In this document: positions 13,839-62,644 of the stretch, in pieces
Layout of the letters: each line of letters opens with the position of its first letter
Numbering within the stretch: the first letter of the stretch is position 1
Position numbers and translations under genes: made by a program
Assembly: GCA_028697205.1 (NCBI GenBank)
Contig: JAQVFO010000002.1
Location: 62,001 to 126,000 of the forward strand
Direction of reading: 5' to 3'
DNA: 64,000 nt
Source: Candidatus Altimarinota bacterium
GTDB taxonomy: Bacteria; Patescibacteriota; Gracilibacteria; BD1-5; UBA6164
The notes under the pieces: generated by a model
Seen by the model: the letters and a program-made list of their open reading frames with translations, nothing else
Told to the model about the DNA's origin: nothing
The model's database searches: none

Positions 13839-13865
13839 AAAAATCAATTAAAAAATTACATTTTT

Positions 13866-27770: not shown

Positions 27771-27798
27771 ATAATAATAGATAATAATATATAATATT

Positions 27799-27827
27799 AT
27801 TAAATCATATCTTTTATTTTTTTGCAA
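27799..27827 (-). promoter_or_regulatory. Promoter of surface gene 1
   Basis: On the minus strand TTGCAA (27827-27822), 17-base spacer, TTTAAT (27804-27799), about 28 bases before the ATG. The block around it resembles the promoter of surface gene 2, so the promoter was duplicated with the gene. Confidence 0.5.
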
Positions 27828-27830
27828 AAA

Positions 27831-27868
27831 AATAAAAGAATTCAAGTTAATTTTATGAATTCTTTTAT
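27831..27868 (-). terminator. Terminator after surface gene 2
   Basis: Stem AAAAGAATTCA / TGAATTCTTTT with a short A/T loop and flanking U-rich sequence, between the stop of surface gene 2 and the promoter of gene 1. Confidence 0.75.
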
Positions 27869-36431: not shown

Positions 36432-36441
36432 AATTTTCTAA

Positions 36442-38337
36442 TTAAAAATATTTTGAAAAATTTTTGTAATAATCTATTTCTATGAGTTTAATCATATAAT
36501 TTATAGTATCAAGTGCTCATAAATATCATTCTTTAAATGCCCTAATATTGAAAAAATTAACTCAATTTTCATAAAATCTATTCTCAGTATAAATATCTGA
36601 ATAAACTAAATTAATATTTAATTTATCAATTTTATCTTTCATTTCTTGTTCTGAAGAGAAAAAATTTATTGTATATTCTTCAGTTTTTACTTTATTTTTT
36701 ATAAGATTACTGATAACTTTCTGATTAATATCTTCTTCTGTAAATCTTATTTCATTATTTACAATAAAATATTCTTTTAAGTTATCATAAATCAAAAAAT
36801 CAATTCAAAATCACATTTCTTCAAGAAAATCAATAATATCAACATTGTTGTTGTAATCAGAATCAAAAAATGTTTCTAGTTGTTTTTTTCAAAGAAAAAT
36901 CAATCAAATTCTGTAATTTTTTGATTTTATATAATCTGATTTTTTAGAGAAATCTTCAATAATTTTTATATTTTCATTTGATATAAAATATTTTTCTCAA
37001 AAATATTTATAAATTTCATCAAACCACTCATCAGTTTTTTTTATTCAATATGGATAATTAGGAGAAATATAATCAATTCACATATTTTTGAAAGGATATT
37101 CAAAAATTTCCTCTTGAAATTTATTATTTGAAAAAACAAATAATTCAGTTTCATAAAGTCTTTGCAATAATTCTATATTTATAGTTGGAATAAAAATCGC
37201 ATTTAAACTTACATTATTTTCTTTTAGTGAAAAATATAGTTTTTCTAAATATTTATTTTCATGATATCAAAAAAGTGAAATTGATTTTTTATTTTTTTTA
37301 AATTTTTGTTTACTAATCTGATCTAAATAATCTTCCAATAATGAAATTTTCTGTTCAAATGGAGTTTTTTCTAGCTGTCCTTTAAATATAAATGGAATTT
37401 TTATATTTTGTTTTGTTTTTTCCAAAATAGATTTTATATCATCTCAAATAACTCTTGGGACACAACAACAATTGAAACTCAAAAGTTTTAAACTTTCTTT
37501 TTCAATTTGACTAGCTAAATAATCTAATGAAGAAGAAAGCTTCTCATTTCATTTTCACATCACAATATCATCTTCTGATAAATCTGTAAATACAGAAACT
37601 CAAGATTTTGAATCTTTTTTTAAAATTATATTTTTTTCTTCTTCCGAAAGGTAAAAATATTTATTAAAAGTATGATCATAAAATCAATTTGGATATGAGA
37701 AAAAAGTAAATTCCTTATCAGGATCAACACTTGGTCAAATTGCCAAACATTCTCTTTCTGAATGGTGAATGTATCAATGTGCAACATTTAATTCAATACT
37801 TTGGTCAATATTTCTAAGAACTCATTCTGGAACAATAAATCTAAATTTGTGAGTTTCATGTCACCAATCTTGAATTATAGAAAACGGAGGTCTATTTGCT
37901 TTCCAAAATATTTGATAGTATTCTTTTTTGGCTTTGTAATCTTTTGATAAGATTTCTAAAAAATATTTAAAAGTTAAGTCTTTTCATTTTTTTGAAAAAT
38001 AAATTAAAAATTTCAAAGATTCGTTATCATTTGGTTTATAATGAACTCAAGTACAAATATTATCTGTACAAAATTCTCAATTACATTTTTTGTTTCAAAA
38101 ATTATCTTTTATATAAAAGTCAAATTGGTCTTTTCAATCTTTACTTGATAGTAAAATTCTGAATTTATCTTGTTCAAATACTAAATTATTTATTGAAAAT
38201 TTTTCTCCAAAATCTTTGTCAACCAAGTTAAATAACTTAAAAAAACTATTTTTTATAAAAATAGAAGGAGTGTATCTTTTTCACAAAAAATCTTCTGGAT
38301 TAATAATTCTATTTTTTATTATTTCTTCTCTATTCAT
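36442..38337 (-). CDS. Nitrogenase-like component 1 protein, NifK type, with N-terminal extension
   Basis: 631 residues. Residues about 1-250 form an extension rich in aromatic residues, with CNGEFCTDNIC and HHSERECLAIGPS. After it the nitrogenase fold is plain: SVFTDLSEDDIVMGKGNEKL, LLSFNCCCVPRVIGDDI (the T-C-x-P-x-x-I-G-D-D motif with Cys kept), ISPNYPYGIKKTDEGF, a Rossmann GLIFLGKK, and the end ENGVNFFNIRAFKEGYLGAL (G-Y-x-G-A). The extension contains no radical SAM motif. It is 10 bases upstream of the NifD-like gene, so both are probably made as a pair. Confidence 0.82.
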
Positions 38338-38432
38338 AATTTTGAAATTTTTAATACTTAAAATTGGTTTAACTTAATTTTCTCAAAATATATCAAGATA
38401 AAGCTTATAATACCAATTATATTTTTCTTTTA

Positions 38433-38779
38433 TTAAGCATTTGTAACATGTTGTCTTTTTAGCATCATTTTTATTTTATATATTTTTGAGCTTAGATTAT
38501 TTTCATAATTATTTTCTTTATAATTTAAAATGTTTTTATCAAATGAAGATCTATCAATTTCATACAAAATACATAAATAAAGCCCAATTTCTCAATTATT
38601 ATTTGAGAAATATTCTAAAAACAACAAAATTCTCTTTTTCTTTTTAAACTTGGCAAAAAGGAGCTCATTTCAAAGAAATTAGTATTTTCTAAATTTGAAA
38701 TTAATTTATCAACTTCTTTTAATTTATTATTTTTTAGAAGGTAAATAAATTTTGCATTTATTTTTTCAAGTTCTTGCAT
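38433..38779 (-). pseudogene. Small gene with an apparent -1 frameshift
   Basis: ATG 38779 opens MQELEKINAKFIYLLKNNKLKE, ending at TAG 38615 after 54 codons. A second frame, open from about 38670 to TAA 38433, continues convincingly (GNELLFAKFKKKKRILLFLEYF ... NNNGEIGLYLCILYEIDRSSF, cut here). Joining them by a -1 shift near 38670 gives a 110-residue helical, basic protein. It lies between the NifH-like and NifK-like genes with no room for another gene, so it may belong to the complex. Programmed frameshift, sequencing error and pseudogene remain open. Confidence 0.5.
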
Positions 38780-38790
38780 TTATTAAAAAA

Positions 38791-39606
38791 TTAAATTTCT
38801 AAATTTTTAAAAAATTCTTCAAATTCTTCATCTCACATAGGTGTTGGTAATTTTTTTTGAGCCTTTGTTATTGAAACTATATCATCATTTAATTTGTAAA
38901 AAATTTTTATAACATCACTATCTGGAGCATATTCAGCTAAACTCATAGCTTTGTATTCAGCCATAGCAATTACATCGCTTCTTGGTATCCAAACAATGAT
39001 ATCTAAATTTATTTTATTAACAAAAGCTTCAATAACTTTCTTATTTATATTATTATCTCTAGCATTTACAATAACTCATCAAACATAAATTCAATTGCGG
39101 GAATATTCTAAAACTGCTTTACAAATATTATTACAAGCATACATACTCATTATTTCTTCAGAAATCACAATAAATACTTTTTCTCAATATCAAACTCTAA
39201 GCGGTGAAGCAAATCCCCCACAAACTACATCTCATAAAACATCAAAAAGTATTACATCATAATCAGTTTTTAATAAATCTACATCATCAAAGATCTCAAA
39301 CATTTTAGAAATTCATCTTCATGCACACCCCGTTCAAGGAATTGGACCTCAAGCCTCAATACAATCAATTCAATTAAATCATCTAATTACTAATTCTTTT
39401 ACATCAACAAAATCATCATTTGATTTAATCATTTCCATAACAGGGGTAATCTTTTTTCATTGTAATAATTTTTTTGTTGAATCTCTTTTTGGATCGCATC
39501 AAATTTGTAAAACTTTTTTTCATTTTAGTGAAAAACAAGCGGATATATTCGTCGAAATTGTTGATTTTCATATTCAGCCTTTTCAATAAATTGCTATTCT
39601 TTCCAT
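38791..39606 (-). CDS. NifH-like ATPase (nitrogenase reductase family)
   Basis: 271 residues. P-loop GKGGIGKST at 8-16; GCDPKRDST at 36-44; the two Fe-S ligands C94 (GTGCAGRG) and C129 (VVCGGFA), 35 residues apart as C97 and C132 in NifH; switch regions with DVLGD. This is the NifH/BchL/CfbC family, not a plain ParA, because both cluster Cys are kept. As a homodimer it would hold one 4Fe-4S cluster and feed electrons to the NifD/K-like pair downstream. It follows radical SAM C by 6 bases. Every P-loop Gly except none would be lost without UGA=Gly. Confidence 0.92.
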
Positions 39607-39612: not shown

Positions 39613-40584
39613 TTAGTTAGTAATAGGATTTATTTCTGATAAAGAGTAAATTTGTTTGTATTCTTTCCAAACTCACTCACAAATATCATTATATTTGCAT
39701 TTCTTACATTCTTTTTTCTTGGTTTTCAATATATTTAATCTCCTATATTTCCACTTAAATCTTTCTTTCTCATCATCTATATTTACATGATCAATTTGGT
39801 TTATAATATCAAATTGCTCTCATAAAAATCTTTTTACTAAACTATCCGTATTTTTTTTACCAATTTTATAAAAAATACAAGGAGGAACAGTATCAAATGT
39901 TATTCTAATATTATATTTTATGGAGATGTAGATAAGTTTTTTTAAATATGGTAAAAAATCAGTATACGAAATTGCAAGTTCTTCCCATCATTTAATAAGA
40001 CCATCTGAATCAGATAACCGAATAAAATTTATTCTTATATCATTAATTCATTTTTTATAATAGAATAATACTGTATCAAGTATCTTTTCTAAATTTAGTT
40101 TATTTAAAACAATATTTATTGAGATATTGCTTTTAAGGGTTCCATCTTTTTGAAGTTTTTGAAAATTTTTAATTGCTTTTAGCTTTCTTTCCAATCATCA
40201 TGGAATTTTTGTTATATAATCTTCTGTTTCTGAAATATGTGAATGAATTGAAATATTTATTCTGGTAACTCACGCATCAACTATTTGGTAAGCATATTCA
40301 TAGTTTGAAAAAAGCATTCAATTTGTAATGACATTGATACTTTTAAATCATAATTCTTTAGAATATGAAATTATATCAATTATTTTTGGATGAATTGAAA
40401 TATCTCCTCATAAATATCAAACTGAATTAAACCCTTGTTTAGCATAATATTCAAGTTTGTTTTTTACATATGATAAATCCGCCAGCTTAAGCATGTCTGG
40501 ACGAGAATTTCAGCTCATACAAAAAATACATCTATTATTGCAGGCTTTTCATATATTTAACTCAATATGTTTTATAGAAATCAT
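39613..40584 (-). CDS. Radical SAM protein C (HxsC-like)
   Basis: 323 residues. Begins KHIELNIGKACNNRCIFCMS, very like paralogue I, so the two are recent duplicates. The SAM-binding motif is GYLGGDISIHP, with G-G-D in place of G-G-E. NISIHSHISE is the substrate-side strand. C-terminal Cys set CKKCKYNDICEGVGKEY. It overlaps gene D by 50 bases and is followed after 6 bases by the NifH-like gene. Confidence 0.86.
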
Positions 40585-41488
40585 CACAAAAATTATTTAA
40601 TATTAAATCAACATATTTCACAGATTTAAGAACTAGTGAAGTATATTCTTTTTTTAATATATCTCAAATCAATATTAGATAACTTTCTACAAATATATGA
40701 TCATTAAAATCAAACTTTAATCAGTTAAAAATATCACCGATTTTTAACTGATTTTTATACATCTCAAACTTTCAAGATAATATTAAATTAGTTCAATATA
40801 TAATACCATCCGTATCAATAACCAATCATAAATTAAAAAATGAAACATCACTATAATTTTCTAGATTCACAAGTTTAAAATGATTTCAAGATTTATAAAA
40901 ATTAAATACTTCCTCAAATCAATTTTTTAAGTTTATAAATCACTCTTTTGACCACTCCTCATAATAAGCTGGTAAAAAATTAAACTTTCTGACTCATAAA
41001 TCATAAATAAATTTAAAGTTTTTAAAAAAAGTTTTTGAATTTTTTGATGTAATTACTTGATTCACTCTTACGAAATCAGCATACTTTTTTGTATTTTTTA
41101 TAATTAACTCTCAGCTATTAAATCAATTTTCTAAAATTCTATTTTCTCATAAAATATCTAAATCTCAGTCAATAGAAAAAGTTAAATTTATATTATTTTC
41201 CTTTGAAAAAATAATAAAATTTTCATCAACTAAAGTAGTATTTGTTGTTATATAAAAATTTGGATTATATTTCTTTGGAAAATTTTTTATTATATCTTTA
41301 ATAAATTTTTTTTTTAATAATGGCTCACCACCAAAAAATTTAACTTTTTCTATTATAAAGTTATTTTGTTCTAAAAATAATAAACTTTGATTTATAATTT
41401 CCTGTGAAATACTATTTTTATGTTTATAAACATCACAATATTTACAACGAAAATTACAATCATAAGTTAGGATATATATTAACTCCAT
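40535..41488 (-). CDS. Radical SAM protein D (no C-terminal Cys set)
   Basis: 317 residues. CNFRCKYCDVYKHKN and VKFFGGEPLLKKKFI define the radical SAM core; the C-terminus lacks the CxxC...CxG signature found in its neighbours and instead shows VIDTDGIIYGTN and KIGDIFNG, the turn seen in SPASM-type peptide maturases just before their clusters. It therefore forms a separate subgroup. Its 3' end overlaps gene C by 50 bases. Confidence 0.85.
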
Positions 41489-41490
41489 AA

Positions 41491-42405
41491 TTAAAATTTA
41501 TAATATTCTAAATATTTTCTAAATATTCAAGTACAAGGATTAGTTTTCCATTTACAATCATTACACATTTCTACAAAAGTTCTTTTTCTTGAATTATCTG
41601 GACTATAAATATCTTTTAAAACTATTTTTCAATCTTTTGTTGTAAATCTTTCTATAGTATGTCTTTCTTCCCAATGTTCATCATTAGAATAATCATAATA
41701 TAGTTCTCATAATATACAAGTTGGTAATCAAAAAAATCTTAATGTTAAACTATTTTCGTTACAATAATTAACTATTTCTGGAATATATTTTTTAAATTCA
41801 TATAAATCAAATACTAACTCAGAAAATGTGTGATCTGCCAATCATTCTGGAGCAATATTTGAAATCAAAATTTGTTTGACATCAATATATGTACTTTTTA
41901 TAAATTTAATGATTTCCATTATATTTTGATAATTGTATTTATTTAAAACAATATTTGAAAAGAAAAAATTATTATTTGTCTTATATTTTATAATATTTTT
42001 TGAAATATAGTTCTTATAAATATCAAAATGGTTTTTTAATCATGTTTGTTTTTTTACTGTTTCTTCATCATACCAATGAATTGATAAAGACAATTCATCT
42101 ATATATTTTAAGGCTTCTTTTGCAAAATTTTCTCAAGCAAACATAGTTCAATTTGTTCAAACATATATCTTATATCATAGCTTTTTTGTAAACTTTAAAA
42201 GTTCTAAAAATCAAGAAATAATAGTAGGTTCTCATCAAGTAAAATTTACATGATTAAATCATTGTTTTCTTCTATCTACCAAAATAGTTTTAATTTGCAA
42301 TATTGTTAGAGGAGAGGTTCTATATTTTTGTAACCTATCATACTCGCTACAAAATATACAATTATGATTACATATATATGAGATGTGGAATTCTAATCTT
42401 TTCAT
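41491..42405 (-). CDS. Radical SAM protein E (HxsC-like)
   Basis: 304 residues. CNHNCIFCSEYDRLQKY, NFTGGEPTIISGF, LSLSIHGYDEE. C-terminal MCNDCKGKTNPCTGIFRKYLE. It follows gene F after 1 base and precedes gene D after 2 bases. Same two-cluster architecture as A, C, F, G, I and J. Confidence 0.85.
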
Positions 42406-42406
42406 T

Positions 42407-43261
42407 TTATATAGGGTTAAACTCATTATCTCAATGCAAATCTAAATATTCTTTATAAACTCAAGTACATAAATTATTTTTATATGCACAAGAATCACAT
42501 TTTTTTCAATAATAAAAAATCTTGTTTTGCTTTTCTATTTCTATTTTATATGGTGATATTTTTATCTTATTTCAAATATGCCCTTTTGAATAGTTTATCA
42601 ATATTTTATCTAATTTTGACATTCATATTTTTAAACATGGTATCCTAAAAGGTAAAATATTATTTTTATCATATTCATTTATGTCTGATAATTTTATAGA
42701 AAATAATTTATAATCTAATTTATTATCTTTATATGGGTAGTGTGCAATAATTCTTGATTTTTTAAATACACCTTCAAAACTAAATGGGTAATTTTGCTTA
42801 ATTAAAATTGTATGAAAATAATATTTTATTCATATTTTTGAAATATTTTCTATTGCTTGTTTTAATTTAAAATAAGCTCAATCTTTTCCGGTTACTTTAT
42901 CATGAATTTCATCATCTCAGTAAATAGGAATATATAATCATTTAACTCCTAAATCATAACATTTTTTTGCAAAGTCATAATCAGAAAATCTTTCTCATGT
43001 AGTTTGTATATATATATCTTTAATTCATAAATTGTTTAAAAATTCTAAAAATTCAAAGAAATAAGTAAAATTTGTAGGCTCATTTCATATTAACATACAT
43101 TCAGTAAATGATTTTCTTCCTATAAAAACTAAAATCTTTTTTTTAATTTCATTAAAATACCAAGAATGATTGTCCTTATTCATTCATTCTTTAAAGTATC
43201 AATGACAAAAAATACACTTTTGAGTACAATCTCAAGATAAATTAATTACTATTGGTAACAT
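42407..43261 (-). CDS. Radical SAM protein F (HxsC-like)
   Basis: 284 residues, the shortest of the set. CTQKCIFCHGYFKE is the cluster motif; MLIGNEPTNFTYF carries G-N-E-P instead of G-G-E-P. C-terminal CDSCAYKNNLCTGVYKEYLD. Five bases separate it from gene G. Variation in the GGEP motif suggests relaxed or altered function. Confidence 0.83.
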
Positions 43262-43266: not shown

Positions 43267-44181
43267 CTAAATATTTATAAAACTAATTCACTTATTTCAG
43301 TATAGATTAATATATTCTTTCCATACTCCACCACAAAGTCATTTATAAATACATTTTTCACATTCTTTTATATACTCCTTGTTATTATCATCTCTTTTTA
43401 TTCATTTTTCAATAAGATCTTTTCATTCATTAACCTCTATACAATTTTTATTATAGTAATTCCATCACATAATGCAAACTGGTAATCAGCAATACGGATT
43501 GTTTACTATTAATCACAAATTATATGTATAATCTAATATTCAAGTCAATTCTTTATTTATTGTTTCATAATCAAGCATTAAATTTATATTTTTTTTAGCT
43601 TCTCAGTGAGGTTGAATGAATGACAAAGATATATATTTAATAAATGGAAATTCAATTTTAATAAAATCAAAATACCCTTTTAAATCTTTATAATTTTTTT
43701 TACTAATTACAGGATTCAATATAATTTCAATATTCTCATATTTTCAAAGATTTTTTATATTATTAACAACTATATTAAATACTCAATTTAATCAAACATA
43801 CTCTTCAAAAATATCTTTTTTATGTGAATGAAAACTTATGAAAAATTTATTAACTCAAGAATTAACTAATTTTTCAACAAGTTTTTCATTCAACAGAGTT
43901 GCATTCGTTTGAAGTTCAATATATTTAATTCATAATTTTTTAATTCATAAAACTATCTTATCTAAGTCTTTTCTTAAAGTTGGTTCTCATCATGATAAAG
44001 TAATCTTAACATCATTAACTCATCACTGACTTTTAATTACTTTTTGTACTTCTAGTAATATTTCAAAAATAGTTTTCTCTTTAAAATTTGGTTCTGTTTC
44101 ATTTGTTACATTACAAAAACTACACTTTTCATTACAAAGCATATTTAAACGAATGAGATATGAACGAATGTTATTAGACAT
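43267..44181 (-). CDS. Radical SAM protein G (HxsC-like)
   Basis: 304 residues. CNEKCS plus FC completes the cluster motif; LSGGEPTLRKDL and FFISFHSHKKD follow. C-terminal CEKCIYKGLCGGVGKEYINLYG. Stop is TAG. Its start overlaps the end of gene H by 8 bases. Confidence 0.86.
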
Positions 44182-45517
44182 TGTTATTTCAATTATTATT
44201 AATAAGACTTTTCTTTATAAAGCTTTTTTTCTCAGTTTCATTCAAAAAATTATTAAATAAATACAAAAATAATACATATCTATTTTTCTCTATAACTTTT
44301 ATAAAATTTCATTCAATGCTCAATATATTTTTTTTAAGTCACATTGAGATTTCTTTTAAGAATACATCGGATAAATTTTCTCAAAAAGTTAAATTAAATC
44401 ATTCTAAACTAACTCTACCATATAAATCTAGTCAATAAAAAATGTAATATAACATTTCATCTCTAATTGTTATATTATATTTTTTTACATTATTTTTTGT
44501 ATTATATTTATCTAAATCAAAATTTATATAATACTCTTTACCAAATACATTTCATACTGCAGTTGGTCAAAGTCAGATTACAGATCTTCATTCATAAAAG
44601 TGATTAAAATGATATTTTTTATCTTCTAAATATTTATGATTATTTCTTATCAAAAAAAATGCTGTTGAAAAAACTTTTTCATTATACATATAATAATCTG
44701 TGTCTGTACTAATTTGATTAATAAATTCATAATATCTTTCAATAATATTATTATAAGTATTTACCATCATATCTTTTGAAATTTTTTTTCAATATACAGT
44801 CATTTGTAATGGAAATACGCATATATTATCAATATCAATAGATTTTAAAAATTTGAATGTATTTATTTCATCTTCAAGGGTTGATCATGGTAATCATAAA
44901 ATCATATCAGATGAAACTTCTTTAAAATTCTTTGACTTAACATAATTAATTATATTTACATATTTATCAATATAACCTTTTCCTTTAAATCTATTTACAT
45001 CTTTTATTATATTTTCATTTACAGATTGAATTGGTATTTTTACCATATCAAAACCATAATTTTTAATCAAATCAACTTTTTCATTATTCAAATAAAGATG
45101 ATTTAACTCTATAGTATGGACAAATCAATCTTTAAAATTAAAATATTTATATAACAGCTTAAATAATCTCTCCATCTCATCATAGCTTAATATGTTTGGA
45201 GTTCATCATCAAATCCATAAAGCTGATATATCAATTTTTCAATAAGTTATGAAATAATATTCCATAATTTCCTCTAGTTTTTTTAGAAATAGAGATATTT
45301 CGTTTTTATTATATTTTGTTTTATTACAATGACAATAATCACATATATCATTACACCAAGGAATATGTAAATATATATCAATCCTTTTTCAACTATTTAT
45401 TACATCCTTATAATCATTAATTAAATCTTTTATATTATATTCAATATATGTTTCTCTTTCAAAAGGGAGTAATGTATATAAATAAAATCCCTTGAAAATA
45501 GAATATTTATTAATCAT
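44174..45517 (-). CDS. HemN-like radical SAM protein H
   Basis: 447 residues. HIPGCNDICDYCHCNK gives CxxxCxxCxC, the coproporphyrinogen-III-oxidase-like motif, and GIGGGTPNILSYDEM and IELNHLYLNNEKVDLIKNYG follow the HemN/HemW plan. The C-terminal half is divergent from HemN. No other heme-pathway gene is present, and three further paralogues (K, L, M) stand in the same array, so a peptide-modifying or methyl-transferring role is more likely than heme synthesis. Confidence 0.84.
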
Positions 45518-45525
45518 AGAAATTT

Positions 45526-46452
45526 TTATTTAAATATATAATCTACATATCTTTTCCATATACCTTCACATTCTCATTTCAAAAAACAATTATTACATTT
45601 TTTTAAATAAACTTTTAATTCTTTTCTCCTATTAAATTGATTTATTATATCCCTCGATGTCAAATTTATATCATCTCTAGAAATCTTATCTTTTTCTCTA
45701 TCAATATTTTGCTCACTAAATTTTAAAAAATTTTCATAATTTAATCAACTAAAACACCATGGAATAGCTTCAAAATTTATTTTTAAGTCTTTATAACTAT
45801 TACATAGATTTAAAATATCTAATAAATCATCTTTAAAGTCTTCATATTTTAAAGCAAGAATATCATAATTTTTTGTCGAATATCATTCAAGCTGAATGAA
45901 GTTTAACCTAAAAGATTTTATTCATATTTTATATAAAAACAAAATAGTTTTTTTAATACTTTTATAATTCAACTTTGATATAACTATATTTACTGAAATC
46001 TCCTTTTTTAATAATCACTTATTAAAAAAGCATAATAAATTTCTTATAGCTTCTATTTTTTGGTTTACAACTCAGTTAATTCATCAAACTAAAAAACTTT
46101 CTTCTTTTTCAATAATTGAATGAAAAGAAATAGATATCCTAGTAAGTCAAAATTTTAAAGAATCACTTAAAAAATCTTTATTAGTAAATTTTGATCCATT
46201 TGAAATTACTTCTATATTTTCAAAATTATGATTTTTAGCACATAAAATAATTTCTAAAAAATTAGGATGAATTGTTGGTTCTCATCACAAGAATCATATT
46301 GAGTTATATCACAGATTTGATAATTTCTTTATTTCATTTTCTATAGTTTCAAACTTTTCAAATCATAAAACTTTATTCCTTGTAATTCATGACATACAAA
46401 AAATACATTTATGATTACAAGCTTTTCATATATTTATCTCTATATGTTTCAT
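45526..46452 (-). CDS. Radical SAM protein I (HxsC-like)
   Basis: 308 residues. MKHIEINIGKACNHKCIFCM, FLGGEPTIHPNF, ISISFHSIIEK. C-terminal CNNCFLKGECEGIGKRYVDY. Nearest paralogue is gene C (39613), matching along the whole length including the start, with H and the G-D block between them. Confidence 0.86.
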
Positions 46453-46509
46453 TTTAAGTTTTATTTAGAAATATATACTTCCTAACATAGTCTCTTAAAT
46501 TTATTAATA

Positions 46510-47436
46510 TTATATTTTAGGTAAAAATTCATTCCATCAAAATAGTTTTATATAGGAATCCCAAATTCATTCGCAATTATTATAATACTTACACTTCTTA
46601 CATTCTTCTCTTTTTGATTTTCAGTTTATCATAGATATATCAAACTTATCATTTAATTCTAAAGAATGATTATCAGAATGCCTAGCAAAGTTAATATCTC
46701 ATTGTTTAAAAGATACTGGTTCTCTAAATCAAATCATGCTTTCAATATTTTCTCAAAGACAATATGGAAATCAATTTATATATATGTTATTATATTTTTT
46801 TTGAAACTCAACAAGTTTTTCAAACTCTTTAGATATAATAGAGTATTTAACCAAAATATCTTCTTTATTCTTATAAGCTTCCTCTTGAGGAATAACTACA
46901 TTTAAAACAATACTATCAATCGGAAATTTTTCAAGAAAGTAAACAATTTTATATACTTCTTTATAATTTTGTCTAATAATTGTTGTATTGGTATTAAAAA
47001 CTAAATTATATTTTTCTTTTAATTTTGATAAATTTATTAATCACTTTAAGACATCATTAAAAACTCATTTTCTTCTAACTATTGAATCATGCAAATTTTC
47101 ATTATATCAATGAATAGAAACAATAAAATCAGTTACTCAAGCATTTATTAAATCAAGTAAAAAATTTATATCTTTATATTTTCTTCAATTTGAAATTATT
47201 TGAATAGTTTTATATCATAATTCTTTTGCAATTCAAATCATTTCAACAATTTTTGGATGAATAGTTGGTTCTCAACTAGTAAAAGTTACTTCATTACTAT
47301 ATTTTAATCATTCTATAAGATTTTCTCTCACTTTATCTAAAGTAATAAAATTTCTTATAGTTTTATCATCCATACAAAATATACAATCATTAGTACATCA
47401 TCAACTAGTTAGTATATGAACTCTTTGATCTTTCAT
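46510..47436 (-). CDS. Radical SAM protein J (HxsC-like)
   Basis: 308 residues. SGGCTNDCIFCMDDKT, VTFTSGEPTIHP (S-G-E-P), FIVSIHGYNENLHDS. C-terminal CKKCKYYNNCEGIGDSYIKL. A 57-base gap to gene I is among the largest in the array. Confidence 0.86.
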
Positions 47437-47439
47437 AAG

Positions 47440-48798
47440 TTATTTATATGCTATAGATAAAGTATTTTGGAATTCTTTTACATAATCTCTTTTCTCATCA
47501 TATGAAAATTTATCTAAAATTAACTTTATATTTTCTACTGAATAAAAAATCTTTGAAAATAAAAGTTTTTCATATACATTTTCAATTTTTGTCTTAAAAA
47601 AATTATTTTCAATATTAATTACTTTATTTTCTTCTAAAAAGGAAATTTCGTTTTTATATAAATCTAAAAAGTTAATTGAAAATTTTTGATTTATCTCATT
47701 TATATCAAATCAGTGTCTAAAATGAGATATAATAAACCTTGATATATAATCATTCTTAAACATTTTTATTCCCATATATGTAGGATAATCATCTTTATAC
47801 ATATCATATCAAGTAAAGTACATAAGATTTTTATGTATATAAGACCTAGTAGGGTATCAAAATCAAAGTATCGAACAATTATTCACGATTTTATCAACTT
47901 CTTGATCATTTCTTGCACTTTCATTTAATCACCAAGAATCATTTTCAATTCATTTATATCAAAAACTTTCAATTAATTTTACTCATAATTCATACATTAT
48001 ATCCCTATTTTTTATATCATTATCAGTATATGTAAATCAATCTTTATAAAATAATGTTTCTTTTGTTGGCCTAAAAGGATATAAATGAATCATATTAGGT
48101 TTAAGCAATATTATTCTTTTTAAATTAATTAAAAAATCTTTTAAATTCTCTCATGGTATTCAAGGCATCAGATCAACATTAATATTTTCTATTCAAGAAT
48201 TTCTAATCCATAAAAATGTTTTTTCAATTTTTTCCCAAGTTTGAATTCTATTATTAAATTTCAAAGAATTTTCAGTCATTGTTTGAATTCATATAGTAAC
48301 TCTAGAAACTCAGTACTTTTTTAAAATCTTTATTTTTTCTTCAGTAATAGTATGTGGACTAATTTCAAAATTCCATTGAGCATAATCTTGAAAATTATAT
48401 AATCACCTAATTGTTTTTAGTAATTTATTCAATTGATCATTGTTATAAATTGATGGAGTTCCTCATCAAAAATATGCATGATTCAATTTAATATTTTTAA
48501 ATATAGGTGAAAAATAATTTAATTCATCTAGTATCTTGTTTAAATAATTATCTAATGTATTTCATCAAACTATTTTCTCACTTCCACAACTGCAAAAAAC
48601 GCATTTTGCTTCACAAAAAGGAGTATGAAGATAAAGTCATATTTTTTTATGTTTTTCATAATCATTTTTTATATAATTTTCCCAATTATCATAAACAAGT
48701 TCTTTGGACATTTCAATAGCTATATCCTGTGGTGGATATATATTTCATCAAGAAGTATGTAAACATATAAAAGCTAACTTATTTAGATTAATTTCCAT
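47440..48798 (-). CDS. HemN-like radical SAM protein K
   Basis: 452 residues. YPPQDIAIEMSKELVYDN opens a conserved N-terminal block shared with L and M; then LHTPFCEAKCVFCSCGS (CxxxCxxCxC), AYFGGGTPSIYNNDQL and GIQTMTENSLKFNNR. Starts overlap the end of gene L by 11 bases. It has the HemN-type core but a distinct C-terminal domain with FGYPTRSYIHKNLMYF. Confidence 0.85.
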
Positions 48799-50062
48799 AT
48801 TTTTCTTTTAATTTATTAATTACATCTTTTCAAAAAAACAATGAATTAAATATAAAATTATTTATTTTATCAAAATTAATTTTTAATTCACTATTTGATA
48901 ATAAAATACTTTCTTTTCAATATTTAGAAGTTAAAAGTTTTAACTTAATTCAATAATCTTTTAAAAAATCAGTTTTAAAAATAGTTTTATATTTTTCAAA
49001 CGATAATCATTCAATCATATTTTGCAAAACATACCTATCTTTTTCATCATTTATCAAATAATTATATCAAATATATGAGTCTAGATTTATTTTGTTTCAA
49101 ATTATTACTCATGAATTTACATATGCTAATTTTCAAAAAATATTACTTCTTGCTGTATATCAAAATCATATATTTGAACTTGCATTTTCTATTCTATCAA
49201 CTATTGAAATATTTCTAGCACTTATATCATATCAATAATCGTCATTTTTTAACTTTACTCTTCAGGTTTCATAAATTCTTTTTATAGCATATTGATACAT
49301 TAATTCACTTATTTTACTATTTTCATCAGTATAAATTTTTCAAATTTTAAAGAAATTTGTAGTTTCCGATGGATTAAATCTATATATATGAATTATATCA
49401 GGACTAATATTTAAAACAATTTCTAATCATTTTATAAATGTATTAAGTGTTTCTCATTCTAATCAACAAACTAAATCAACATTAATATATTTTATTTTTT
49501 TCTTTATATAATTTACATTTTTAAGTAAATTTTCTAAATTTTGTATTCTATTAATATTTTTCAATACCTTTTCATCAAGAGTTTGAATTCATAATGAAAG
49601 CCTTGTAACTCAGTACTTTGAAAGTATATCTATTTTTTCAAAATCTAGTGTCTCAGGCATAGCTTCAAAACAGAATGGAACATTATCTATAAAATTAAAT
49701 TTATCATAAATAAATTTTAAAATATCTTCTAATTGAATAACATTTAAAACTGATGGAGTTCATCATCAAAAGTATATACTTGAAATGGTTTTATTTTTAA
49801 ACAATGAAGAAAAAAATAAGATTTCTTCTTTTAAATTATCTAAATATCTTTTTATTTCACTTTCATTTGAAACATAACTATTACAATGACAAAACTCACA
49901 TTTAGTTTTACAAAAAGGAATATGAATATAAAGTCATACTCTATTATCAAGTCAATCATTTAAATATGTTTCCCAAGAATTATATATTTCTTTTTTACTA
50001 ATAGATTCATACAATTCAATTGGTGGATACATATTATCTCTAGATAAAATCTTTTTTAGCAT
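48788..50062 (-). CDS. HemN-like radical SAM protein L
   Basis: 424 residues. MYPPIELYESISKKEIYNSW at the start, IHIPFCKTKCEFCHCNSY (CxxxCxxCxC), YFGGGTPSVLNVIQL and SLGIQTLDEKVLKNINR. The frame was followed codon by codon over its whole length using UGA=Gly. Closest relatives are K and M on either side, an evident tandem triplication. The C-terminal FGYTARSNIFGKLAYVNS block is shared by all three. Confidence 0.88.
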
Positions 50063-50063
50063 A

Positions 50064-51437
50064 TTAATCTGTAAAAAATTGTTTTAATTTTAAATCTAGA
50101 TTTAAAAACTCTCCTTTATTATTTAATATATATTTTCAAAATTTTTCTATTAATTTTTCATCATATAAAAACTTTGAATATATTGAACAATATAAGTCAG
50201 AATTAATTGCAAATCTAATTCATTTTCATCAATCAAAATTATTTAATATTCATTTACTCAAAAGGTATTCTAATTTCTCATATATTTTATTTTTTTTCAA
50301 ATCACTTCAAAATAAATTTCAAAAATTCTCATAATAAACTCATCATCTAAGATTATTTATTAAATAAGTTATTATTTCACATTCTAAGTTTAGTTCATAT
50401 CAAAAGAAATTTATCTCATTATTACTAGTTAAAAATGTTTTATATTCTTGAAAACTATTTTTTGTATAATGTAAACTTCAAAATGCATGACTTATAGCTC
50501 AATATCAAAGTCACAATATAGAACTATTATAATTATGAGAGTTATATAGTTGTAGATTTTGTTGTTCAGTATCAGTAATTTTTGACTCTTGATCCTCAAA
50601 AAATTTTCAATATTTTTCCATTTCATTTCTAAGCTTTATATTTTCATAATTATATATTCATCAACTTTTTATAAAATTTGTACTTTTTGTTGGCCAAAAT
50701 GAATTTATATGAACTGTGGTTGGATCTAATGTTTTAACTAAATCTATTGTTTCTTTAAATCAATCTATATCTTGTCATGGAATTCAAGCCATTATATCAA
50801 GATTTATATATTTTATTCAATGTTTCCTAGCTAAAAAAATAGCATTCTTAACATCATCAAATTGTTGAAATCTATTATTTGTTTTTAAAGTTTTTGAATC
50901 AAGAGATTGAACTCAAAAAGTCATTTTATTTACTCAATGTTCTACTAAAACTTTCATTTTATCATCAGTTGTTGTATAAGGACTTCATTCAGTCATTATT
51001 TGTTTTACGTTAGACAAATCAAAATATTTTTTTAATATCTTATAAAACCTATCAATTTGACTTGCTGATAATATAGTTGGAGTTCATCATCATACATATA
51101 CGGTATTAAATTTAGTTCATTTAAAAATATCTGAAAATAATTTAGATTCCTTTTCTATTAGATCCAAATATTCTTCATATTTATTTGTATCATGTTCTAC
51201 CTTTGTTACACAAGTACAAAAAAAGCAATGTGTATAACAAAAAGGAATATGAACATAAAGTCACATATTATGATTCTTTTCGGAAGATTTAATATAATTA
51301 ATTGTATTTTTCCAAGAGTTTAATACTTTATCTTTTGAAATATTGTTATCCCAAAATAAAACAGGCGGATATGGCATATCACCTGCTTCATATTTTATTT
51401 TCCAGGAAAGATGTTTATAAATTTCTATTTTATTCAT
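50064..51437 (-). CDS. HemN-like radical SAM protein M, first of the tandem
   Basis: 457 residues. MPYPPVLFGDNNISKDKV, VHIPFCYTHCFFCTCVTK (CxxxCxxCxC), YVGGGTPTILSASQI, FGVQSLDSKTLKTNNR. It is the first radical SAM gene after the kinase-like gene, whose end it overlaps by 8 bases. Its role as a second type of radical SAM enzyme of the HXS locus is inferred. Confidence 0.86.
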
Positions 51438-52422
51438 TATTATAACTTATATCTAATTTTTCAAAAAATACTAAAAAATCTTTTGTAAATTTATAATTTA
51501 TATATATATCTTTTAAAATTATATTCCACTCATTTCTTGATATATCAATATCAATATATGTAAAAAATGTAAAATATAAAAATAATCATTTAATAAACTT
51601 AAAATTACTGATATTATTGTCTGATAATTTCTTAAAAAATAAGTCAATTACGTATAAATATATTTCATATCTTTTAGTATTATCTTTATTATAGAACTTA
51701 TATGCAAACAATAATATACTACACATATCATAAAATTTATCTCAAAACTTTATAGAATCTAAATCTATAAACAGTATATTATCATTATTTTTATATATAT
51801 TTCATTCCCAAAATGAAGAATAAATTAAATTTAGTTTATTCTGACTTAAAAAATCAATATATAATTCTAAATTATCATAAAAGTATTTCTCTTCAATATC
51901 TAGTTTTTTTAATATTAAACTAAAATACTTTTTAGTTTTCTTAGAAAATTGTAAAAAGTATTTTATATTATTAATATAATCAGTTACACTAGAATTTACA
52001 TTATATTTATTAATAGATATATACAAATTACTATATATATCTATTATTTTGTAAATGTCAGATTGTAAAGTTTTCTCTAAATTATACTCAGGAAATAACA
52101 AGTAAAATCATCAATAAAAATTAGTTTTATATCATCCAAAATTATTTTTAATAGGATAAATTGTATTTGAAAAATTATCTAATTTTAAATTATTAAATAT
52201 TAAATTTAAATCTACTGTATTCCTACTATTATTAATATATTTTAATATATATTTATTACCAGATTTATCTATTAATTTAAATACTTTTCTTGAATTTAAT
52301 ACCGAATAATCTATTCTATCTCTCTGTAATATATCAATTTTTTCAATTTCTAAATAGTTATAATTTTCATATAAACTAGATATAAATTCATTAATATAAG
52401 AAATCTCGTTTTTATTTTTCAC
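51430..52422 (-). CDS. APH-fold kinase-like protein
   Basis: 330 residues. N-lobe: KVFKLIDKSGNKYILKYIN gives the ATP-binding Lys strand. C-lobe: NLIYSSFGEGNIYKNNDNI (position of H-G-D-x-x-x-x-N, Asn kept but the usual His-Gly-Asp replaced by Ser-Phe-Gly) then FIDLDSIKFGDKFYDMC, the D-[LF]-D and G-D-x-x-Y-D segment of aminoglycoside/choline phosphotransferases. Loss of the catalytic Asp suggests a non-phosphorylating or changed activity. Coupled by overlap to the anchored protein upstream and gene M downstream. Confidence 0.65.
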
Positions 52423-53107
52423 ACTCAGCTAAAAATTGTTTATTTAAAGTTTCTAGATAAAAATCTTTTCACTTTACAGAAATTATTTTTCAATGTTCCA
52501 TAGAACCTAATGCTAAGATATCAGCTTTAGAATCAACATCATCAAATAAAACATTATATGAATTATAAATATCTGTACAATCTTTTAAATCATTTTTTTC
52601 AGTTAACTGATTACATTTATTAGTAGAACTTAATAATGAATCAAATAATACTGAATTAAAAGTATCATTCTTATAAGTATTTAGAATACTTTCTCTGTCA
52701 TTTGCTTTAAAATATATACAAGTTTCTTTTTCAGATCATTTAAAAAAATCACAATTTCACTTTTTTAAATTTAAAAAATTTAAATATGACTTATTATTTA
52801 TATTAGATAAAGCTCCACTATATATATTAAGCAAATCTAATTTTTCGCTTTCTAAATATTCTGACCTTTTTCAACTAATAATTTTTTCACACTCTGTTTG
52901 TAATTCTAATCAAGATTTTTTCTGATTTGTAGGTCAAGGAATAGAAGCACTTCAAGAGTTATTAATATCAGATCATTTAACTCATCCTTTAATTGTTTCT
53001 ATTTTTTGATTATTTGAAACTCAACCATTAATTTTTGCTAAAAAAAATACACCTCATAACAAAATTATTATAACTAAAAGAACTAAAGCAAAATAACTTT
53101 TTTTCAT
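52412..53107 (-). CDS. Membrane-anchored extracytoplasmic protein
   Basis: 231 residues. One N-terminal helix (residues 6-25, FALVLLVIIILLGGVFFLAK) leaves about 200 residues outside the cytoplasm, with a Gly/Ser linker and five or six Cys (TECEKI, GNCDFF, KETCIYF, NKCNQL, KDCTDI). No family recognised. It follows the precursor gene directly, so it may bind, hold or display the modified peptide. Confidence 0.75.
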
Positions 53108-53128: not shown

Positions 53129-53599
53129 TTACCATTGTCAGTGGCTTCAATGACTTCAGTGACTTCAGTGGCTTCAATGACTTCAGTGACTTCAATGACT
53201 TCAGTGTCAAGCAATTTTATCTACAGATCAAAGTGTTGATGTAATATTTCAAGTACCAGTTCCACTAAAATGTCCATTAATTATACCACTACTATGACTA
53301 ACATCACACAAAGAAGTTCAATCTGTATAATTAACATTAATATTTCAATAGTTTCAACATCAAGGAGCGGTAACATCTCATCAAATTGGAAGAGGAGAAG
53401 CACAAGATGCAACAGCATCTGGAGTATACTTGTTTAAATGACTTGTAGCTGCCATAACATCATCAGCTCAACTCAATAGTATGGCTCAAGTTGCTAATCA
53501 CAAAGCATCTTTCTTGCTAATCTTTCAACTTTCATCAGTTAAAAAAGATTTAATTTGCTTTTTTAACTTTGGAAAAACCTTTTTTTTACTTTCTGACAT
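53129..53599 (-). CDS. hxsA: HXS-type RiPP precursor with C-terminal (His-Gly-Ser)7 repeats
   Basis: 156 residues. Leader-like N-terminus with SGKISKKDALGLATGAILLS and a short linker DDVMAATSHLNKY; four or five Cys in the middle (SCASPLP, APGCGNYG, TSLCDVS); then from residue 132 seven tandem H-G-S units and a final HGQW before TAA. This is the layout of HxsA-type precursors. All eight repeat Gly codons are UGA, so under the standard code the peptide vanishes. It lies 63 bases after hxsB and 21 before the anchored protein. Symbol by family resemblance; final product unknown. Confidence 0.85.
53141..53206 (-). repeat. 9-bp tandem repeat encoding His-Gly-Ser
   Basis: Seven units of the form CAy-TGA-AGy (y = T or C) plus one partial unit. 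Third-position variation (CAC/CAT, AGT/AGC) among units shows that the repeat has been under coding constraint rather than freshly expanded. Confidence 0.95.
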
Positions 53600-53662: not shown

Positions 53663-55153
53663 TTATATAACTTCACATTGACTTATAAACAAATCATTAT
53701 TATTTCACAATATCCAATTCTCAAAAACCTTCTTATCATCATCAACTCTAAGTTTAGAAAAAATATAATCTAATACTGAATAATCTAAAAATTTTTTATG
53801 GTCTTTAGAAAAGTTTGGGATTAAATTACCTGTAGTTTTATATGAATGAATTGGACAAACTCAAATATATGGCTTATAAACACTTTCATTATATCATGGT
53901 AGTCAATCTATAGTACTTGCTTGTACCATAACCCTTGTAGTTTCTCAATCAATCATATTTTTATAAGTTTCTTCTGCGCTATCAGAGACTTCTCACATCA
54001 AGAAATTTTGATCTCACATACGTCAAAGCATTCTTCATTCATCACAACTGTAAATTTTTCAATCATAGTTATAAGCGACTTGACCAATACAAGCTCCACA
54101 AGGACTTCTCTCATCTAAGAAATTAGGGTCTTTTGGAGTTAGTATTTTTGATAAATAAATAGCACTTAGCATCTCTCTAAAATTTGTTCATTTTTTATTT
54201 AAATCTAAAATATAATCCATTGATCTTTTATAAAACTCTATAAAATCTTCTGCAGAATATCAAAGATTTTCTAAATCTGCAGCAGCAAATCAATATGGAT
54301 TTAATGGTCTTAAAAAAATTCAATCAAGTCAAAGATCTACATAAGTATCAATAACTTCTTTATATCTTGATAAAGTTTTCTTTGTAACAGTTAAAAGAGC
54401 TCATACTTTTTGATTTAATCATCTCTTTTCATACTCTTCATTAATCCTTTTTATCCAATAAGTAACTTTATCAAAACTATTTCATTCTTTAAATGTTCTA
54501 TTAAAATTATGAGTTTCCTCATCTCAGTCAAGAGAAGTTGAAATATGTACATTATGAGATAGTAAATATTCTAATTTTTCTTCATCCATTAAAGTAAGAT
54601 TTGAAACTAGTGCAAAAGTTAAATTTTTCTTTAAATGAAAAGCTTTTACTTTTGCATATTCAATTATATATTTTACTATATCCCAATTAACCAATGATTC
54701 ACCTCATTGAAACTCAATTGTTAAATTTGGATTTGAAGTATAAAATATTGTATCAACAACTTTTTTAGCAGTTGATTCAGTCATATCCATATTTTTTGCA
54801 GTCATTGGTGCAACTGCAGCATGACAATATTGACATTTATGATTACATCTAAGAGTAGTAACAATTATATGAAGAGAAGGTCAATATGCCAAAAATTGGT
54901 TTTTTTTAGCATATGAAAAAGTCATATCACTTTCATAATTATCTTCTTTTATAAAATTTTTTGATATCAATTCATTATATTTCTCTCAAGAGACAATCTT
55001 TCAAGATATAAAGTCTCAAAATTCCTTTTCAGTTAAAAAAGAATATTTTCCTACATCATTTGTAATTAAATATGTATTTTTATCTAGTTTTTTAAATCTA
55101 AAAAATCATATTTTTTCACTTTTAAGTGATTTTATAGTTTGTAAATTCAACAT
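53663..55153 (-). CDS. hxsB: His-Xaa-Ser system radical SAM maturase HxsB
   Basis: 496 residues. N-terminal FRFKKLDKNTYLITNDVGKY and FLTEKEF are characteristic of HxsB, then GPSLHIIVTTLRCNHKCQYC (CxxxCxxC), NLTIEFQGGESLVNWD, ISTSLDGDEETHN and IFLRPLNPYGFAA, which match my recollection of the HxsB family closely. A SPASM-type Cys region follows: CGACIGQVAYNYDGKIYSCDEG and VCPIHSY. It should act on the HGS-repeat peptide encoded immediately downstream. Confidence 0.9.
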
Positions 55154-55170: not shown

Positions 55171-55365
55171 TTAATATTCGTTAACTATCGCAAGACAATA
55201 ATTCATAAATTCATTAAATATATTATCTAATTCTCAATCTGACTCAATCTCTAAATTTCAATTTGAGTAAGAAATATGTGCTATATCTTGAAAATCTTTT
55301 ACAGCACTAATAACAACATCGTCTTTATATATATTATTATCTATTTTGAAACTTTTTTTTAACAT
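55171..55365 (-). CDS. Small HxsD-associated protein
   Basis: 64 residues, starting MLKKSFKIDNNIYKDD inside the 3' end of hxsD (29-base overlap, another frame) and ending FMNYCLAIVNEY. The phrase YKDDVVISAVKDFQDIAHIS echoes the start of HxsD itself, so it may be a reduced paralogue or a precursor-recognition element. It lies 17 bases before hxsB, in the position expected for a helper protein. Confidence 0.7.
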
Positions 55366-55903
55366 CTTTAATTGAATTAGTATCTAAAGTTATTGTTGGT
55401 CTAGAATTATCATTCATAGATTCTGTTTCCTCTTCTATCTCTTTCAAAATTTTTTCAATTTCTTCTTCATCAATTTTAAGTTCAGGATCATTTTCTATTT
55501 CTTTTAAAATTTCATCTATATCTTTATCAAAATCTATTTGATTTTGTTCTTGTGAATCAGTATTAATATTAACAAATCATTTACTATCAATACTATTAGA
55601 AATTGCAGCCCATACGATTCTTTCTCTTATTTCTTTATTATCATGTTCTAATTTATCTCTTAAATATACAGATAAAAGTTCATCACTAAAATCTCAAATT
55701 ATTCTTTCAGGAGATTCAACAACTCAAGCTTTTGAAGTAAATTGTAAAATAATATTTCTATTTTCATCAAGCTTGAAGAAAAAATATCATTTATCTAAAA
55801 AATTATATGACGCTTTTAAAACTATATCTTTTGAAAAGATATCTTTATCTATTAATAATTCAAAACAATTTCATTCAATTATTTCTCTTAAAAAATTTTC
55901 CAT
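55337..55903 (-). CDS. hxsD: His-Xaa-Ser system protein HxsD, with acidic C-terminal extension
   Basis: 188 residues. The first 105 fit HxsD: CFELLIDKDIFSKDIVLKAS, YFFFKLDENRNIILQF, SDELLSVYLRDKLEHDNKEI. HxsD is a small obligate partner in HXS loci, likely a precursor-recognition or scaffold protein. The remainder is acidic and repetitive (DIDEILKEIENDPELK), probably disordered. It is first gene of the locus, after a terminator and a -10 element. Confidence 0.75.
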
Positions 55904-60070: not shown

Positions 60071-61039
60071 TTATATTGATTTTTGCAAATACTGCAAAAA
60101 ATTTTCTAAATTTATATCAATTTTAGTTATATCCCGGTAATAATCCTTGATTTTATCTCAATTTCAAAAATCATTTTTCTGAAATTCTTTATTCTTAAAT
60201 AAATAATCTCAGAAAAAGTTATATTTTTTAGTTAAAATATCACTACTTTTGGTCTTTTCTTTAAAATCTGAGTTATGTAATACATAATAAGCAAATGATT
60301 CAGCAAAGTCTTCATACTTATTTGTCATAGCATAACCTGAAACAAAATCTTTTTGTGATAATCATTTCTTTGAAATTTTAGTAGATTCCCAAGCTATATT
60401 ATAAAAATAATAACTTGGATCTATATTTCAAAATGAATTTTTATCTAAATAATATATATCTAAATAATGAGCAAACTCATGAATAAAAACTGATACTAAC
60501 TCACTATTTCAAAGTTTTTTTACTCAAAAAAGCTTAACTTTTCAATCCTTCATTTTTCACCTAACGTCATATATTATTTTATTAAACTCTACTCATAAGT
60601 TTACTATTTTATCATTAAAAACTGTTTCTAAAAGCAATTTCTTCAGAATATATGATTGTAAATTTATATCACTTGCAAAGTCTGATGGAATATAATCAAA
60701 ATAAAAATTATTTTTCTGGGATTTATTTTCTGTATTATTTTCTTTATAAGTAGTAACATTTAAGTTTTCTTTGTTTTTTTCACTTAAATCATTGTTTATA
60801 GTTCATGTACTTGAAGAAATATCAAAAGAAGAATTATTTACTAATTCCTCATTTTGTGTATTGTTATTTACTGATTCTAATTGAATATTTGGTTCTATTT
60901 CCAAAAATAAACTTCTATCTATATATTGTTCTTCAGCATTTTTTGCAACTCAAGAAAAAAAGTAAGTTTTAATTAAAAATATAATTAAACTAAATAAAAT
61001 AGTAAGAATTATTATTGTAAAAAAATCTTTTATTTTCAT
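60071..61039 (-). CDS. Membrane-anchored HEXXH metalloprotease
   Basis: 322 residues. N-terminal membrane helix (FFTIIILTILFSLIIFLIK), a low-complexity N/S/E linker to about residue 115, then a gluzincin-like catalytic domain: SVFIHEFAHYLDIYYLD with HEFAH and, about 60 residues later, YEDFAESFAYYVLHN with the third ligand Glu. It faces the outside. Upstream lie four pilin-like genes on the same strand, so it may process surface proteins. Confidence 0.78.
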
Positions 61040-61048
61040 AAATTTAAA

Positions 61049-61459
61049 TTAATTTAATCAATAAATTAAATTAATTATTATAGCAATAATTCAAGAAGCA
61101 GCTACCAATCATGTAAATCATATAAGAGCCCATTTAATTATGTTTTTTCATTTTTTTATTTTTTCATCATTTCCTCAACTAGAAACCAAAACCATTGATC
61201 CATATGCAATAAATCCAATAGCAGCTAAAGCTAAAATAGTTCAAACATTTTTTATAAAGTTTAAAATAACTATTTTAAATCATCCCGATACTTTTAAATT
61301 TCATCAAGATCATGTTTGTACTACATTAGAATCTGACAAACACCCTTCTAATGAAGTTAAATCCTGTCAAGTTTTACATTGCTCAAGCGCAGAATAAGCT
61401 AAATCTCATATAAAAAAACTTGAGATTATTAAAATTATTAAAAATATTTTTTTAAACAT
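61049..61459 (-). CDS. VirB2/TrbC-like pilin paralogue 1
   Basis: 136 residues. Signal peptide (MFKKIFLIILIISSFFIGDLAYS), a short exported region with Cys pair (EQCKTG ... EGCLS), then two membrane helices separated by GNDEKIKKGKNIIKGA. This is the VirB2/TrbC pilin plan: helix, charged K-K-x-K loop, helix. First (5'-most it is last) of four tandem paralogues. Confidence 0.72.
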
Positions 61460-61476
61460 TATTTTAAATTAACTAA

Positions 61477-61848
61477 TTAAAGTCATAATGTAGTTACCAA
61501 TTTTACCATTCACCAAGATAAACTTATTATAGCAAGTCAAATAACTGTATACATAGTCATTTTCCATGCTTTTTTAAATTGTTCCTCATTTCAAGAAGAA
61601 GTTATAAACAAATATCAAATATATATAAATATTGCTACTGCAATTAAAGCTAACAATCAAAATGTATAATCAACTATTTTTGCAAAAATACTATCTAGTA
61701 CATTTGTTCATGTTTCATTTGTAGTAATTATAGTATTAGTTTTATCTGGAATTATATTGCTTTTTATATCTAGATTATCTACTGCAAAAGTAGATAAAGG
61801 TGAAAGAAAAAGTATCAAAAAAGAAATGATAATAGTTTTAATTTTCAT
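61477..61848 (-). CDS. VirB2/TrbC-like pilin paralogue 2
   Basis: 123 residues. Signal peptide MKIKTIIISFLILFLSPLSTFA with A-x-A-like site, then two helices flanking GNEEQFKKAGKMTMYTV. No Cys. Same plan as its neighbours with little sequence identity beyond the loop. Confidence 0.72.
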
Positions 61849-61864
61849 GATTTTTAAATATTAA

Positions 61865-62221
61865 TTATAATGTTATATTTGCATTGTTTATTGCATTTAT
61901 CAAAAAATATCAAGAAATAGATATAAATACTGCTATCAAAGACCAAGTTATCCATTTTTTGGCTTTTTTAGTTTTCTCTTCTTCTCATGCTGAAAGCATA
62001 TACATTATTCAAGCATACATTAAAGCAATTACAGCAATAACTGCAACATATTTTATTACTTCTGATACAAAGTTTCATATTACATTAACTATTCAATTTT
62101 GTCATAAATTATCTCAGGATTCACATCAAGGTAATCATGTACATTCAAACTTTGGTCAACTTGCTGCAAAAGTAGTTAAATATGAACTTAATCATAATAT
62201 TATAAAAAGTATTTTTTTCAT
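61865..62221 (-). CDS. VirB2/TrbC-like pilin paralogue 3
   Basis: 118 residues. Signal peptide MKKILFIILGLSSYLTTFAA, Cys pair (FECTGLPGCES), then helices around GEEEKTKKAKKGITGSLIA. Cys spacing is like paralogues 1 and 4. Confidence 0.72.
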
Positions 62222-62224
62222 AGT

Positions 62225-62644
62225 TTAATTTCAAGTATATAATATATATCTAAGAAGAGTTACTAGGTAATAAGAAGATAATGCAACAATAAGTGCAACG
62301 ATTCATGTTGTAAACATAGTTTTACCTTTTGAAAGCATTTCATCTTGTCAATGATAGAAAATCATATATCAAGCTCAAATAGACATAACCAAAAGTGCTA
62401 TAACTCATATAGCTATCATCAAATTTTGTATAATTGTTGATAAAATATTATTTGCAGTGTCTTTGATATCTCAAGTTTCGTTATAATTCTTAGTTCATGG
62501 TGATATGTCTGTTGTATTTATCATAAATTCAGTTGAGTTTAGACAATTTTCTCAAGTACATCAAGAACTAGTTGTTCAATCTGCAAAAATATTACTTATT
62601 CATAAAGTTGATAATATTAAAAGTAAAAGTATCTTTTTAATCAT
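62225..62644 (-). CDS. VirB2/TrbC-like pilin paralogue 4
   Basis: 139 residues. Signal peptide MIKKILLLLILSTLGISNIFA, Cys pair (GCTGENCLNS), then helices around GQDEMLSKGKTMFTTG. It is the promoter-proximal member, with a divergent glycosyltransferase gene upstream; promoter-like A/T-rich sequence lies in the 112-base gap. Confidence 0.72.

Follow-up and report, generated by a model that had tools for sequence, protein, structure and literature searches.

Evidence for an Hxs-type RiPP precursor gene in a bacterium with UGA recoded to glycine, and for an incidental role of the genetic code

Results and Discussion

In the 64,000-nucleotide stretch of DNA from Candidatus Altimarinota bacterium analysed here (the window), a code-25 reading frame on the minus strand, running from 53599 to 53129, encodes a peptide of 156 aa with the C-terminal tail (HGS)7-HGQW, in agreement with the coordinates and repeat tail of the initial annotation. 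We assign the gene (53129–53599) to hxsA, encoding a His-Xaa-Ser repeat precursor peptide, on the basis of this frame, matches to the NCBIfam models HxsA4 and HxsA3 and homologues adjoining hxsB in relatives. A leader of approximately residues 1–50 (53450–53599), reading KKKxFPKxKKxIKxFLTDESGKISKKDALGL..., is kept across relatives and is matched by the HxsA3 model at residues 9–51. The central motif HSSGIINGHFSG (residues 102–113; 53261–53296) has the family form HxSGIVNGHYSG and lies inside the HxsA4 match (residues 106–156); a motif of this type is present in the HxsA of 32 out of 37 relatives. The C-terminal repeat (HGS)7-HGQW (53132–53206) is built from nine-base units CAY-TGA-AGY and shows periods of 9 bp and 27 bp. 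Speaking against the assignment, the peptide stays under the curated cut-offs of both models, with 47.7 bits for HxsA4 (NF038313, E 2.2e-12, cut-off 55) and 39 bits for HxsA3 (NF038309, E 5e-10, cut-off 65).

Every gene from 55903 down to 32977 lies on the minus strand. The neighbouring hxsB (53663–55153) encodes a radical SAM/SPASM maturase that scores 510 bits against TIGR03978 (cut-off 370) and whose CxxxCxxC motif is invariant in an alignment of 11 sequences. It is preceded by a gene for a small HxsD-like protein (55171–55365), which is below the cut-off of NF038315 (35 bits, cut-off 41) and keeps its position in relatives, and by hxsD itself (55337–55903; TIGR03976, 55 bits, cut-off 50). 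The order hxsD, hxsD-like, hxsB, hxsA recurs in about 30 relatives belonging to two families, and of 77 genomes analysed for the order, 45 encode an HxsB that scores above the cut-off. A canonical HxsC (TIGR03977) above the cut-off of 267.9 was detected in none of the 21 genomes tested, including the present one, where the best protein reaches 118 bits (12945–13847). Thus, we are dealing with a variant and not with the canonical four-gene Hxs system. The gene at 12945–13847 encodes another radical SAM protein of the HxsC4-like type (152.7 bits) and is located outside the cluster between two ribonucleotide-reductase-like genes.

The cluster comprises 14 radical SAM genes including hxsB, four being HemN-like, several HxsC-like and others recognised by their Pfam domain alone. 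A probable membrane-anchored protein is encoded at 52412–53107; it has a hydrophobic N-terminus in its sequence, an NCBIfam search gave no match, and homologues are located 3′ of hxsA in two relatives (G004 and G010). The gene at 51430–52422, which overlaps the cluster, encodes a protein of 330 aa that by eye alone looks possibly phosphotransferase-like; it has no NCBIfam or Pfam match, and no counterpart was seen in the relatives compared for gene order. The region 43267–51437, 3′ of hxsA, shows four HemN-like radical SAM genes amid HxsC-like ones, all scoring under curated cut-offs. Three are HemN/STM4012-like with NF006067 as best model (cut-off 380), namely 50064–51437 (168.8 bits), 48788–50062 (175.1 bits) and 47440–48798 (175.6 bits). 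They are followed by an HxsC4-like gene at 46510–47436 (NF038332, 187.7 bits, cut-off 500), an HxsC-like gene at 45526–46452 (NF038332, 79.6 bits; TIGR03977, 70.6 bits), a HemN-like gene at 44174–45517 (TIGR00539, 115.8 bits, cut-off 205.4) and another HxsC-like gene at 43267–44181 (TIGR03977, 91.4 bits, cut-off 267.9). Four more radical SAM genes (42407–43261, 41491–42426, 40535–41488 and 39613–40587) each match PF04055 above the gathering score. Two radical SAM genes close the cluster, rS_b (33926–35194; PF04055) and rS_a (32977–33921; PF04055, 85 bits). Both appear to be widely linked to hxsB, with matches in 49 (rS_b) and 51 (rS_a) of 80 cross-phylum hxsB loci, to which other radical SAM proteins could contribute.

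The cluster also contains a nitrogenase-like set. Its NifH-like Fe protein (38791–39606) scores 289 bits against PF00142 as well as 303 and 299 bits against CfbC and NifH, both under the respective cut-offs, and its two cluster cysteines C94 and C129 are invariant. Two nitrogenase component 1-like subunits are encoded at 36442–38337 (subunit 2; PF00148, 63.6 bits; C197 and C292 invariant in 9 homologues) and 35184–36431 (subunit 1; PF00148, 116 bits; C34 invariant in 8 homologues). None of the nitrogenase, CfbCD or DPOR subunit families gives a score reaching its curated cut-off within this set. PF00148 occurs in 9 of the 77 genomes of the order, in 9 of the 48 with HxsB (here taken as E <= 1e-60) and in none of the 29 without (Fisher P=0.012, five of the nine genomes being from one genus and hence not independent). 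Nitrogenase-like homologues are also encoded close to HxsB at five loci from other phyla. An Hxs-linked NifH-like protein with one or two component 1-like subunits, as carried by code-25 relatives and by standard-code bacteria outside the phylum, is seen in the window (35184–39606), in L186 (8646–12634) and in L153, L165, L172 and L212. Locus L186 is a compact standard-code run with the order hxsD-hxsB-hxsA-rSAM-NifH-DK2-DK1-rS_b.

Elsewhere in the window, two adjacent genes (24315–27845 and 27874–30381) encode large predicted secreted proteins whose C-terminal ~390 aa are, judged by eye, near-identical, as after a recent duplication. The region 60071–62644 encodes a zinc-metallohydrolase-like protein together with several small membrane proteins, one of them weakly matching a pilin-like conjugal transfer family.

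Code 25 is securely in use here, the code already known from Gracilibacteria and Absconditabacteria, in which UGA is recoded to glycine (PMC4032931, PMC8629427). The codon counts come from the window and from additional sequence stretches. Over 56 further window genes UGA accounts for 1094 of 1311 glycine codons (83.4%), and the 57 listed window genes end with UAA (54) or UAG (3) and never with UGA, a zero that is partly built in, as these genes were called with code 25, in which UGA is no stop codon. No RF2 match reached the cut-off. A tRNA with UCA anticodon, not among the matches listed by the RF00005 search but recovered by a pattern search, carries the acceptor pairs G1:C72, C2:G71 and G3:C70 and U73, which are the glycine criteria used in PMC8629427.

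The 25 glycine codons of hxsA are 21 UGA, 2 GGU and 2 GGA, with UGA at all eight glycines of the tail and at the glycine directly preceding it. This reading of the codons bears out the initial annotation on two points, the eight UGA codons and the absence of a standard-code ORF, as translation table 11 gives only unrelated frames of 30–55 aa, none covering the hxsA frame. The gene was further said to be invisible to routine pipelines, which is correct for table 11 runs but not for code 25 runs, where the HxsA4 and HxsA3 models match, if below their cut-offs. Similarly, its coupling to a tRNA-Gly(UCA) and its untranslatability elsewhere do apply to this copy of hxsA but are nothing special, since practically every gene here behaves alike.

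Taken together, the gene is very probably a real hxsA, encoding a precursor peptide for a radical-SAM RiPP system of the His-Xaa-Ser (Hxs) type in a bacterium with UGA as a glycine codon, to which the code is incidental. This identity is based on HxsB and HxsD scoring above their cut-offs, on the matches of the HxsA4 and HxsA3 models to the peptide, and on the gene order in relatives of two families. In addition, hxsA in the relatives examined lies 3′ of hxsB and encodes the same three parts, namely leader, central motif and a tail of HGS repeats. The peptide had been described as a precursor, which we can now specify as RiPP-type because HxsA adjoins an HxsB maturase above cut-off, the modification itself being a prediction from sequence. 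Disruption of the frame in close relatives had been named as a sign against the gene, and the frame is kept in the relatives examined.

How unusual is a tail in which every glycine is UGA? At the rate of this genome the chance of eight UGA out of eight is 0.834^8 = 0.235, and among runs of eight consecutive glycines in other window genes 270 of 933 are all UGA. With UGA making up 83% of the glycine codons in the window, the result is therefore unremarkable. Furthermore, Tandem Repeats Finder describes the array as a 27-bp repeat (2.4 copies, 94% match) in which adjacent units recur in blocks, so that the eight tail codons are not independent of each other. We conclude that the all-UGA array is the usual codon choice of the genome copied by tandem duplication, without a functional link between code and product, and that the 27-bp duplication is recent. 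Thus, an all-UGA array may look striking and still be nothing out of the ordinary, as a UGA-rich genome and tandem duplication suffice to explain it, and it is the relatives that settle the question.

Indeed, the relatives show the opposite pattern. We surveyed 32 code-25 HxsA with three or more glycines in the tail and found UGA at 32 of 251 glycines of the tail compared to 330 of 534 in the remainder of the same genes. The tail share was the lower one in 30 of 32 genomes (Wilcoxon 1.7e-6) and in 19 of 20 genera, with genomes and genera treated as independent, which is only roughly true, and with relatedness and array homogenisation not fully corrected for. No UGA at all is present in 21 of the 32 tails, where within-gene shuffling predicts 2.4, and tails with a UGA majority number 3 of 32 (P=1.4e-4 even if only 40% UGA is assumed). 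The present genome is an exception; the arrays of most relatives use GGN and avoid UGA. Avoidance by the whole conserved core, which four GGN codons in or near the central motif had suggested, was rejected as the motif shows none across relatives.

One explanation for this depletion is that UGA is selected against in HGS arrays, the dense decoding by tRNA-Gly(UCA) being slow or error-prone, and that in the present genome this selection is relaxed or the array was recently homogenised from a UGA-bearing unit. We rate it at somewhat less than an even chance. The consistency of the effect over genomes and genera argues for it, as does ribosomal protein L2, which likewise is lower in UGA (mean 0.39) than HxsA outside the tail (0.64), the tail itself showing 0.13 and falling below L2 in 18 of 22 cases. 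On the other hand, UGA is not avoided where other genes are dense in glycine (65% vs 66% UGA), and codon context accounts for some of the effect: glycine following histidine is encoded by UGA in 46% of cases, and in HGS in 6 of 15, so that the histidine context explains part of the depletion in the tail but not all of it. Repeat turnover, either by GC-biased gene conversion or by re-expansion of a GGN unit, could generate the GGN bias without any translational selection, and we consider it rather unlikely. The arrays are strongly homogenised, with examples of 11/11 GGT and 8/8 GGA, and the tail has more CAC among its histidine codons (23% vs 9%), both of which speak for such turnover, whereas the third positions of serine codons show no GC shift and those of GGN codons are if anything reversed (10% vs 21% GC). 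GC-biased conversion as the cause of the array bias is thus not clearly supported. The avoidance of UGA in code-25 HGS arrays offers a natural test of how a reassigned UGA is decoded in comparison to the standard glycine codons.

These data also bear on the claim of the initial annotation of a repeat core dependent on the altered code, which we take here in a strong form: that the core is deliberately tied to this code, that production requires tRNA-Gly(UCA) and that the gene is thereby contained within code-25 bacteria. Such a dependence is highly improbable, although all eight tail glycines are UGA here and one further tail (G073) has 8 UGA among 13. UGA is the usual glycine codon of the genome, and across the 32 tails its share is 12.7% against 61.8% in the remainder of the same genes, with two thirds of the tails lacking it as described above. 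Relatives of the same genus contradict the dependence with their GGN tails (UGA 0/11 in G004, 1/8 in G002, 3/27 in G003 and 3/10 in G001). UGA throughout every other gene already provides the same containment. Finally, HxsA with an (HGS)n tail is encoded beside HxsB in standard-code Parcubacteria, Buchananbacteria, Azambacteria, Elusimicrobia, Omnitrophota, Myxococcota and other Deltaproteobacteria, and one standard-code copy from Azambacteria even ends with HGQW. Since ordinary glycine codons specify these repeats in relatives and in standard-code bacteria, we regard the altered code as incidental to HxsA. The alternative of a code-25 frame that arose by chance across a repeat and is no gene, as its low-complexity tail and the lack of a match at curated cut-off might suggest, is refuted by the conservation of leader, motif, tail and position next to hxsB in relatives and other phyla and can practically be dismissed.

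The reading frame, the code, the homologies, the order of the genes and the distribution of the system are shown by the analysis, and we propose the following model for the maturation of HxsA. The peptide would act as a leader–core precursor, and maturation proteins, with HxsD and the HxsD-like protein as candidates, would recognise its conserved leader. HxsB together with HxsC-type and other radical SAM enzymes would then modify the C-terminal (HGS)n repeats, which presumably hold the modified residues, and from gene linkage the enzymes encoded downstream may also act on the HxsA peptide. We tentatively suggest, at odds slightly below even and with linkage as the basis, that some Hxs systems mature the HGS-repeat peptide, or a cofactor for it, by means of a dedicated nitrogenase-like ATP-driven reductase, composed of the NifH-like protein and two component 1-like subunits, alongside the radical SAM enzymes. 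If true, nitrogenase-like enzymes would gain a new role, one that extends from the code-25 Gracilibacteria to Elusimicrobia and Deltaproteobacteria with the standard code, and if the set acts on the peptide itself, nitrogenase-like chemistry would be extended to peptide maturation. In a literature search, the titles and abstract openings of the matches revealed no paper joining nitrogenase-like enzymes and RiPPs.

Conclusion

In summary, the recoding does not differ from that of Gracilibacteria and Absconditabacteria: UGA encodes glycine, a tRNA(UCA) has glycine identity elements and no RF2 scores over cut-off. With the Hxs (His-Xaa-Ser) system HxsA/HxsB/HxsC/HxsD (Haft and Basu, as cited in PMC9062424; NCBIfam TIGR03976-03978) the locus shares an HxsB above the equivalog cut-off, an HxsD above cut-off and a neighbouring precursor with C-terminal His-Xaa-Ser repeats. 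It differs in that the place of an HxsC above cut-off is taken by several radical SAM genes of HxsC- and HemN-like type plus a nitrogenase-like set, and in the use of code 25. Compared to HxsA4/HxsC4 (NF038313, NF038332), central motif and tail of the peptide give 47.7 bits and the protein encoded at 46510–47436 gives 187.7 bits, both under the curated cut-offs (55 and 500) of models that are each of the type ‘exception’. As in CfbCD, DPOR (BchLNB) and nitrogenase, a NifH-like protein is combined with two component 1-like subunits; a component 1 subunit scores only 31 bits against solved nitrogenases but 191–244 bits against the Hxs-linked homologues of other phyla, which are therefore its nearer relatives.
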